DNA from: Rhizophagus irregularis
Lineage: Eukaryota; Glomeromycota; Glomeromycetes; Glomerales; Glomeraceae
Assembly: GCF_026210795.1 (NCBI RefSeq)
Contig: NC_089443.1
Coordinates: forward strand, 1,116,001-1,180,000
DNA: 64,000 nt
Direction of reading: 5' to 3'
The translations under genes were made by a program, and so were the position numbers. Positions within the stretch are counted from its first letter, which is position 1, and every line of letters starts with the position of its first letter. Positions 13,430 through 26,775 of the stretch are shown here, one piece after another. Below the pieces are notes generated by a model. The model ran no database searches. It saw only the letters and a program-made list of their open reading frames with translations, and was not told the origin of the DNA.

Positions 13430-13810
13430 GTCCTTCCTTTTTTGGATAATTCCAGGTGGTATTATGTAATATATATTACTCATCAGAAAATGTGGCTCAA
13501 AATATTGAAAAACGTGACAAAAATTCTTTTATACACACACATAATTCACTCACCCCATTTTTACATTATTATTTAAAGTGGCTTTGCTCTTCAACAGTAA
13601 ATTTAACATGGCGCAATACAGAAAAACGTGATAAAAATACTCTTGTACACCTCATCATTTATAATAATATGAAAAATATAATTTTAAAGTACTTTGAAAT
13701 ACGTACTATTATAGAAAATTTTCTTATATAAACACTGAGAAAACGAAGAAAAAATTTCTTCCAAAAAAAATTAATAAACAACTGAGAAATTAAAATTATA
13801 AATAACACAC
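13430..13810. repeat. Promoter-proximal repeat with 'CGTGGCAAAAATACTC' units
   Basis: Two or more diverged units of the type '...GGCGCAATACAGAAAAACGTG(G/A)(C/T)AAAAAT(A/T)CT...AAAGTGGCTTTGCTCTTCAAC' lie head to tail. The block recurs at about 15180-15742, split by the 200-bp element at 15276. Inverted fragments occur at 26684-26775 and 27088-27155. It directly precedes the peptide-precursor locus. Confidence 0.7.
13725..13733 (+). promoter_or_regulatory. TATA box of the peptide-precursor gene
   Basis: TATATAAAC lies about 90 bp before the ATG at 13820. The same octamer core lies about 85 bp before the kinase ATG at 33445, and TATAAAAG lies at a like distance before the ML gene at 18291. The duplicated copy near 15630 reads TATATACGT, so its box is damaged. 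Confidence 0.45.
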
Positions 13811-13819
13811 TAATTAATC

Positions 13820-14109
13820 ATGCAATTAACATACTATCTATTGTTGATTTTCGTCTTTACTATTACTTTAGCGAGTAAATAATCTAATCTTTAAAAAAAA
13901 AATTCTCTTTTTATTAATATTAATTACTAAATGAATTTTTTAATAATAATTTGATTCGTTACTGACATACATAGATGCAGCACCACTAGGACATAGTAAA
14001 CGTGATGCAGAAGCAGGTGAATTTTACATTCACAGCAGCATTTAATGATAAACGTGACGCGGAAGCATGGTGGGACTTTACCCATGATGTAACAAGTACT
14101 TTGCAATAA
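13820..14109 (+). CDS. Kex2/Ste13-type processed peptide precursor (pheromone-like), frameshifted between two units
   Basis: Exon 1 (13820-13874) encodes MQLTYYLLLIFVFTITLA, a clear signal peptide. A 100-bp intron (13875-13974; donor GTAAAT, TACTGAC branch-like motif, acceptor CATAG) joins it to exon 2, completing the cleavage site as ANA|APLGHS. Then follow Lys-Arg and Asp-Ala-Glu-Ala (13998-14015). A second KR-DAEA unit follows at 14050-14067, then WWDFTHDVTSTLQ and TAA at 14107. KR is the Kex2 site and X-Ala pairs are substrates of Ste13-type dipeptidyl aminopeptidase, as in yeast alpha-factor precursor. The first frame runs only to TAA at 14043-14045 (41 aa). The second unit is one frame away: 34 nt lie between the DAEA codons and the second KR. 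Aligning the units shows two single-base gaps in unit 1 near 14016 and 14020; with them both units would read WW[N/D]FT. It may be a recent pseudogene, an allele or a sequencing error. The secreted peptide role is inferred. Confidence 0.7.
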
Positions 14110-15275: not shown

Positions 15276-15475
15276 CCCGTAAAGAATGTTGATCCGTGTT
15301 TTATATTCCCATGTTTTTCCGTGAATGTATCATTTTCATGGAATTTATAACCTTAAATCATGGAAAATTTCATCTCTTTAACACGGATATCCGTAAATGT
15401 ATCATTTTCACGAAATTTTTGTGAAAAATTCACGTAGAAATAATAGAAATATTTGGATAAAATTTTTTTATAGGG
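15276..15475. mobile_element. 200-bp CCCTATAAA MITE (Harbinger-like, 3-bp target duplication)
   Basis: Read on the minus strand it begins CCCTATAAAAAAATTTTATC; the other end is CCCGTAAAGAATG. It matches 31580-31778 over its length (200 against 199 bp, opposite orientation). It interrupts AAAGTGGCTT/TGCTCTTCAAC, which is uninterrupted at 13576-13596. The flank suggests a TTT target duplication with one mutated base. Confidence 0.75.
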
Positions 15476-15742
15476 TTTTGCTCTTCAACAGTAAATTTTA
15501 ACATGGCGCAATACAGAAAACGTGGCAAAAATACTCTTGTACAACCTCATCATTTATAATAACTCCGCATATGAAAAATGTAATTTTAAAGTACTTTGAA
15601 GTACGTACTATTATAGAAATTTTCTTATATACGTGTAATCACTGCTGAGAAAGTAATTGCTTCCAAAATAATTAACAAACAACTGAGAAATTAAATATAA
15701 TAAATAACACACTAATAAATCATACAGTAATAAAATGCATAT
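15476..15742. repeat. Second copy of the peptide-gene upstream region, ending at a lost start codon
   Basis: Collinear with 13581-13825, including GGCGCAATACAGAAAACGTG, TACTTTGAAGTACGTACTATTATAG and the AATAACACACTAATAAATCAT leader. Where the other copy has ATG-CAA, this one has ATACAG, and similarity stops. The right arm of the large inverted duplication begins immediately after. This copy therefore lost its coding part. Confidence 0.7.
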
Positions 15743-25800: not shown

Positions 25801-26683
25801 TGTCTAATATTATTAAATCACGTTATATTTTTAGTTTCACAAAAAACTGACGAATAAAGAATTGTGGCACAGTTATTTAGTGCGTTCAGTTTCGTTTTTC
25901 CAAGATATTTCGTGAAAAAGCGTGTGAATCAATGATCATTATGACCAACGAAACGTTTTTGATATGAACATAAATATTATTATTGTAAAATTCATAAAGA
26001 ATGTTTTTGGGTACGAAGTTGAATAGACTTAAAGATAATTTATTAAATAATCTTATACAATTTTTTATAAAAAAAAAAATTTCGTAATTCTAATTTAAAG
26101 AAAAAATTATTATTTTACGTAAAAATATTATTAATTCCGTATAAAATTCGCTTAATAAACTTCAAATATGAAAATTCTTATATATATAATTTGTAAAGGT
26201 GAACTGATGAATAATAAAAAATGTGGTTAACGTAAAAATATCATCAGACATGATAATGATGACTAATTAGTAAGATTTCATTACGATGTAAATGATTGCT
26301 CTGCGTCTGCGTCACGATTAATAATCCGTTAATCCCATGGGATAAAGACGCTATCGTCCTCACCACGTTTATAATTTAGTCGGTGCTGCGTCTGTTTCAA
26401 TAATGAATTTAAAAGAATCCTTAATATTAATATGAATATATGAATAAAAAAAGAAAAATTTCTTTTATAGTTTATTTACCCGTAAAACAATAGTAAAGAC
26501 GATAATCAAAAATAAGTATTTAAATTTCATTATTGATTTGTGTGTGTTGTATAATTTTTAGTTCGTTGTTTATTAATGTGTTTAAAGGAATTTTCTATCC
26601 TCTTTCAAAAAGTATTTATTAGGAAAATTTTTCTATAATAACATGTATATTTCGAATTATTTCACAATGAAGGCGAAGTAAAG

Positions 26684-26775
26684 GCGGCGTACAAAAGTAT
26701 TTTTGCCACGTTTTTCTATATTGCGCCATGGCCATGCTGAAATTTACAATTGAAGAGCAGAGCACTTTAAGTTAA
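26684..26775 (-). repeat. Inverted fragment of the 13430-13810 repeat
   Basis: The reverse complement reads GCTCTTCAATTGTAAATT...GGCGCAATATAGAAAAACGTGGCAAAAATACTTTTGTAC, matching 13590-13650. A second diverged fragment is at 27088-27155. Confidence 0.65.

Follow-up and report, generated by a model that had tools for sequence, protein, structure and literature searches.

The window, the whole 64,000-nucleotide stretch of Rhizophagus irregularis DNA analysed here (C15:1116001-1180000), carries at 13820–14109 a locus that is fairly probably a paralogue of a large gene family resembling KEPs (Kex2-processed repeat proteins), whose secreted peptide precursors would be cut by Kex2 and trimmed by Ste13, and encoding a 41-residue precursor of the peptide GEFYIHSSI, with a second unit left as a relic in a possibly decaying copy. 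Its kinship to the family can be read from the sequence, as can the signal-peptide exon and the intron, the KR site with its X-Ala dipeptides, and the upstream region that it shares with other members; gene models with a common exon-intron plan support the family reading. The single window copy is of minor weight; it is the family that matters, because little is known of peptide signalling in arbuscular mycorrhizal fungi.

Gene structure and reading frame of the window copy

Exon 1 (13820–13874, forward strand), identified by direct reading and by its fit to the family pattern, consists of 18 codons plus the first base of the next codon and encodes MQLTYYLLLIFVFTITLA, an open and hydrophobic stretch that was judged by eye and from its relatives to be a signal peptide. 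It is followed by a 100-bp GT-AG intron (GTAAATAA...ATACATAG; 13875–13974, forward), which is backed by an alignment with the paralogues L003, L004, and L005, which have an identical donor and, at the equivalent position, an acceptor. Splicing from 13874 to 13975 yields MQLTYYLLLIFVFTITLANAAPLGHSKRDAEAGEFYIHSSI, then TAA at 14043–14045, and exon 2 (13975–14045, forward), read directly in the frame of exon 1, gives NAAPLGHS-KR-DAEA-GEFYIHSSI. Unit 1 (13998–14015, forward) comprises a Kex2-type site, KR, with predicted cleavage (13998–14003), and the dipeptides DA and EA directly behind it, an STE13 signature (X-Ala/X-Pro after KR); the predicted peptide GEFYIHSSI is translated from 14016–14042 (forward). 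The signal-peptide exon, the 100-bp intron, and two KR-DAEA-coding stretches had all been placed at these positions by an earlier note, and the direct reading agrees with it. The window has a G+C content of 21–39% in 1-kb steps.

The KR-DA[DE]-[AP] DNA pattern occurs in the 64-kb window solely at the two unit sites. Unit 2 (14050–14067, forward), another KR-DAEA, starts 52 bases from the start of unit 1, so the two are not in one frame, and GEFYIHSSI and its stop precede unit 2. Since unit 2 lies in another frame behind the stop, the Trp-rich 13-mer that had been proposed as the mature product could not arise from a transcript spliced 13874/13975. One continuous two-unit frame with the proposed intron is likewise ruled out by the stop at 14043–14045. 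A frame-restoring second intron of 19 nt between the units (14017–14035) is thought unlikely, the introns of the 29 chosen relatives being 67–127 nt long.

The closest relatives of the window copy are L003 (C17), L005 (C9), and L004 (C15), a decayed copy that has lost its start codon. Upstream identity, with gap columns excluded, is 85.8% to L003 and 89.9% to L005, and the homology to both extends about 600 bases beyond the window copy's stop. The corresponding reading is NAAPGNY-KR-DADAEALNY-KR-DADAQWWDLPMM-stop in L003 and NALPQDHERSEL-KR-DPDLPMM-stop in L005. The out-of-frame tail of the window copy (14068–14109, forward; WWDFTHDVTSTLQ and a stop TAA at 14107–14109) corresponds to WWDLPMM-stop in L003 and DLPMM-stop in L005. 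It is one base longer than the tails of these sisters, and WWDFTHDVTSTLQ thus passes their stop into their 3'UTR. Given DLPMM-stop in two sisters, the Trp-rich 13-mer is, as far as the alignments indicate, an out-of-frame reading into a former 3'UTR.

The frame differs from the sisters at two places, the offset between units 1 and 2 being separate from the tail difference. The same 52-base spacing occurs in L004, from the first to a later KR site, and the unit offset may therefore predate the window copy. Exon 1 and intron identities are 88.5% and 88.5% to L003, and 78.8% and 92% to L005; exon 1 of the window copy thus shows no more conservation than the intron, consistent with weak or lost constraint. 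In a separate match, L034 (C15:1446205-1446243), which has no visible gene and lies about 6 kb from the decayed L004, is 95% identical over 39 bp to the 3' end of the window gene, with further similarity downstream.

These data bear on three other readings of the locus. It may be a plain pseudogene, a dead duplicate that makes nothing; this is a real possibility that falls somewhat short of probable, and it overlaps with the preferred reading, which allows for decay. It would account for the two frame differences from the sister genes, an exon 1 not conserved above the intron, the 52-base spacing held in common with a copy without a start codon, the two further copies in the window, both degenerate, and the many broken copies in the genome (12 of 57 modelled places are without an open signal peptide). 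However, the window copy is still open by the family criteria as a 41-residue precursor, with the design of L061 and L063. Alternative splicing could bring unit 2 in frame through either of two candidate acceptors, an AG at 13995–13996 (forward; exon 2 from 13997) or the AG of ATTCACAG at 14034–14035 (forward; exon 2 from 14036), giving a one-unit precursor KR-DAEA-WWDFTHDVTSTLQ and hence the 13-mer by another route. The frames from both acceptors are open, and ATTCACAG, directly before 14036, is the form that the acceptor takes in L019, L022, L053, and L063. But both lie 3' of the acceptor that the relatives use, the one at 13997 has no AG counterpart in L004, and the sisters' tail is a different one, ending in DLPMM-stop; this route is considered unlikely. 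That assembly or sequencing indels mask a two-unit gene like L003 is very improbable: one of the frame differences does sit in a short T run, but the first offset lies outside any homopolymer and L004 has the equal spacing.

In the preferred reading, that of a family member with one unit in frame, the transcript would be spliced 13874/13975 and translated into the 41-residue precursor MQLTYYLLLIFVFTITLA / NAAPLGHS-KR-DAEA-GEFYIHSSI. The signal peptide would take the precursor into the secretory pathway, a Kex2-type protease may cleave behind KR, and a dipeptidyl peptidase may then trim DA and EA, releasing GEFYIHSSI. The second KR-DAEA would be a relic thrown out of frame by small length changes, at a locus that may be decaying. 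At best, the window copy would make a one-unit GEFYIHSSI precursor of the design of L061, L063, and L020.

A dispersed family with a shared 5' part

The genome searched comprises 146,748,485 bases in 32 contigs, and all genome-wide search counts are lower bounds. The KR-DA[DE]-[AP] DNA pattern was found at no fewer than 117 sites in 146.7 Mb (100 of the 117 listed) versus 0 for the reversed pattern, the 27-letter exon-1/donor pattern with up to 3 mismatches at 49 sites or more versus 1 for its control, and an upstream box of 33 letters, three mismatches allowed, at 40 or more versus 0 for the reversed box. A chance origin of the motifs was rejected on these pattern controls (117/0, 49/1, and 40/0). 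DNA searches returned at least 38 genome matches to the window gene, itself included, and at least 53 to the upstream query 13570–13818 (40 of 76 candidates scored). The window locus, which has the upstream region, exon 1, the intron, and a KR-DA unit in common with its paralogues, belongs to a family of about 50 loci. The members have upstream DNA in common, their signal peptide is nearly fixed, and they carry an intron together with Kex2-type sites and dipeptides of the X-Ala/X-Pro kind, but their peptides are very different.

The shared upstream region of the window copy (13570–13819, forward) is supported by the genome search and an alignment of 35 copies. It contains the conserved box (13610–13642) and a putative element, TATATAAA (13725–13732), which we take to be TATA-like. 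Two further copies occur in the window. One, at 15467–15720 (forward), has 84% identity to the upstream region, and its similarity ends roughly 25 nt past the start of an exon 1 that is degenerate and lacks an ATG. The other, L032 (26438–26727, reverse strand), has exon-1/intron similarity at 26438–26530 and the upstream box at 26695–26727; its exon 1 is one base shorter than the family form. An upstream block of about 80 bp recurs further 5' in several copies (upstream of L003, L004, and L005, and at 13500–13650 in the window), as if it were a regulatory module present two or more times. A 132-bp upstream piece is also found at L078 (C26:1589581), L079 (C14:4409227), and L080 (C4:750055), all equally similar (77%) and lacking a recognisable exon 1; these pieces perhaps lie inside another dispersed repeat.

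Gene modelling, with as many as 6 substitutions allowed, covered 57 places, of which a few are certainly spurious, and an open signal peptide was missing in 12. Twenty-nine precursors were hand-picked as open, which meant an open signal peptide, a GT donor, an AG acceptor, and at least one KR unit. Exon 1 has 17 codons in 27 of these 29 and takes the form MQLK[HY]LLLIF.FTI.LA or MKFK[CY]LLLIF.FTI.L[AT]; the donor is GTAAAT in 24, and the introns are 67–127 nt long. Exon 2 often starts with NAAP, DAAP, or NAEP, followed by KR-DADAE or KR-DAEPE units. The peptide parts range from long EAYGY arrays (L009, L014, L025) and EDFN arrays (L027) to Trp-containing ends (L019, L053, L064) and very short ends (L061, L063). 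One or two KR are present in 16 of the 29 precursors, and six have a single KR, as does the window copy. Ala or Pro occupies the second position after KR in 112 of the 144 segments of the hand-picked set (shuffled mean 35.6, maximum 49 in 500 shuffles), and in 52 of 58 within the subset of 25 that have no more than six KR. A Pfam scan assigned no family to L003, L053, or the window copy. For the EAYGY-type L014 and L012, Antistasin scored above the cut-off with no single stretch passing, and weaker hits fell below their cut-offs; all were taken as artefacts of repeat composition.

Several loci depart from this plan. L006 (C7:4446055, forward) and L007 (C7:5327196, forward) are near-identical and have the family upstream region, exon 1, and intron; their exon 2 is without KR and carries two Cys (NAAPFDPNNKMASDVDCISTDFENCYRITGAV), so the cassette would seem to carry a different kind of product too. 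In L056 (C20:1819500-1820800), a family member, exon 2 runs on as a longer open frame that includes an NNCEH stretch, and Pfam gives a weak LRAT hit below the cut-off (E 0.012). Other Kex2-type repeat frames, for which the pattern scan showed no family exon 1, are L046 (C3:3197000-3198400), with long HDYKDYDDYYNKYDKY units, L043 (C1:7315900-7317400), with PYRGGGGQ units, and L057 (C20:1899300-1901000), with a KRQEE array behind EAYGY units.

Mean pairwise identity among the 29 precursors, with gaps counted, is 0.81 for exon 1, 0.54 for the intron, and 0.51 for the 110 bp upstream, versus 0.47 over the 60 nt that open exon 2 and 0.30 for its last 45 nt. With gaps excluded, exon 1 (0.827) and the intron core (0.836) are alike; of 406 pairs, 178 have the higher value in exon 1. 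What suggests selection on the signal peptide is therefore the exon-1 pN/pS of 0.42 (27 sequences), which has a wide range (codon bootstrap 0.18–0.91, 60 replicates), together with the scarcity of indels, and not identity above that of the intron. The case for constraint on the family signal peptide is thus a modest one.

Fifty-two pairs have introns at least 80% identical, 50 of them among the chosen precursors and two with the window copy. These pairs average 0.91 identity in the intron, 0.73 over the 320 nt upstream, and 0.46 in exon 2, this last value counting gaps and being lowered by unequal array lengths; over the next 200 nt it is 0.53, near the shuffled mean of 0.49. In 13 of the 15 pairs within the subfamily of L023, L050, L051, L052, L053, and L061, homology is lost inside exon 2 and picks up again further along. 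The two exceptions are L052/L053, which aligns throughout, and L023/L050, with nothing behind the stop; for L050/L053, the gap in exon 2 is partly spanned by a 70% block. Across 19 loci compared, any block past the query's stop was found in 24 of 171 pairs, a scarcity that recombination of the 5' part would explain too. The family thus combines a 5' cassette kept alike by conservation or homogenisation with a peptide part that varies much more; for the variability of exon 2, fast divergence and recombination both fit.

The pattern allows a wider proposal, which is offered tentatively and is, in our judgement, rather doubtful. The roughly fifty dispersed peptide genes may be built on one 5' cassette, made up of the upstream region, the signal-peptide exon, and the intron, with a fast-changing exon 2, and the shared box might permit their joint switching, for strain recognition or for tuning to the host plant. 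Such an arsenal behind a conserved cassette would be analogous to the precursor families from which amphibian skin peptides and those of cone snails derive. That genes so alike at the front encode peptides so unlike is of real interest in itself, and with the exon-1/donor motif and the upstream box the family can be listed simply for any strain and the timing of its expression examined.

Processing genes and the possible role of the peptides

Candidate processing genes are present in the genome. A Kex2 candidate on C32 has a subtilase exon followed by a P-domain exon; by eye, an upstream frame at this locus opens with a signal-like stretch, and a downstream one contains a stretch that resembles a membrane segment. 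Two loci have DPPIV_N exons and are candidates for a Ste13-type peptidase. With these candidate genes and the many relatives in the same genome, the earlier proposal of a Kex2/Ste13-style secreted-peptide precursor, or its relic, gains ground, and the 13-mer product falls away from it. The gene structure first noted is, on these comparisons, real and supported by the family, and its key product was mis-read.

The family might represent mating pheromones like alpha-factor, whose plan of signal peptide, KR, and X-Ala/X-Pro dipeptides it follows, and the genome has one gene for a STE3-type receptor. However, the peptides number in the tens and are mutually unlike. The genome gave no match to a STE2-type receptor (PF02116), a weak argument since no control genome matched in the same search either. 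A 2013 study (PMC3834313) reports STE3 and STE6 from Rhizophagus but no genes for peptide pheromones, and a co-inoculation study (PMC7490403) reports that pheromone genes were not upregulated. A mating role is accordingly held to be quite improbable. Cyclised RiPP precursors of the ustiloxin type are a still more remote reading; the cores contain Tyr and Trp, and the cyclisation of R. irregularis KEPs has been raised in PMC6339444, but UstYa (PF11807, DUF3328) had no match in the genome, in a search in which no control genome matched either. The role favoured here is one in signalling, between the hyphae of the fungus or where they meet the plant, rather than in mating, because the family peptides are many and mutually unlike.

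Comparison with known peptide precursors

Part of the gene kind has been described before. In a survey of 250 fungal secretomes, Le Marquer et al. (2019, PMC6339444) report that R. irregularis has many KEPs that bear STE13 signatures and contain Tyr-rich peptides, so the earlier note's word "unlisted" holds only in part. The word retains some force in that the survey rule, as set out there, demands at least three repeats between Kex2 sites, and the window copy has one exon-1-frame unit. Of the family, L009, L014, L025, and L027 satisfy this rule, whereas 16 of the 29 precursors, with one or two KR, would be missed by surveys that apply it. The words intron and promoter are absent from the main text of PMC6339444. 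The strings AYGYKR, KRDADAE, KRDAEPEA, and YGYKRDA do not occur in the main texts of the literature searched, nor was a later paper on this peptide family recognised in that search.

Among other known systems, Umemura (2020, PMC7329392) lists a KEP type, #108, from Rhizophagus, Diversispora, and Trichomonascus; it is compared here by its description, which has Rhizophagus KEPs without a nearby DUF3328 gene. The SP7-like and other Kex2-type repeat proteins of the same species (Kamel et al. 2017, PMC5293756), also compared by description, are likewise secreted with predicted Kex2 sites, and one group of these repeat proteins is described there as expressed mostly in planta. Yeast MF(ALPHA)1, as outlined in PMC6339444, resembles the window family in its secreted precursor, KR cut, and EA/DA trimming, a likeness of plan; for a STE2-type receptor, the partner of an alpha-type precursor, the genome gave no match, nor did any control genome. 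The nearest counterparts are the R. irregularis KEPs of the 2019 survey, which, as that paper describes them, have in common with the window family the signal peptide, the KR sites, the X-Ala/X-Pro dipeptides, the Tyr-rich peptides, and the species itself. The window locus is probably a degenerate member of this already known kind of gene.
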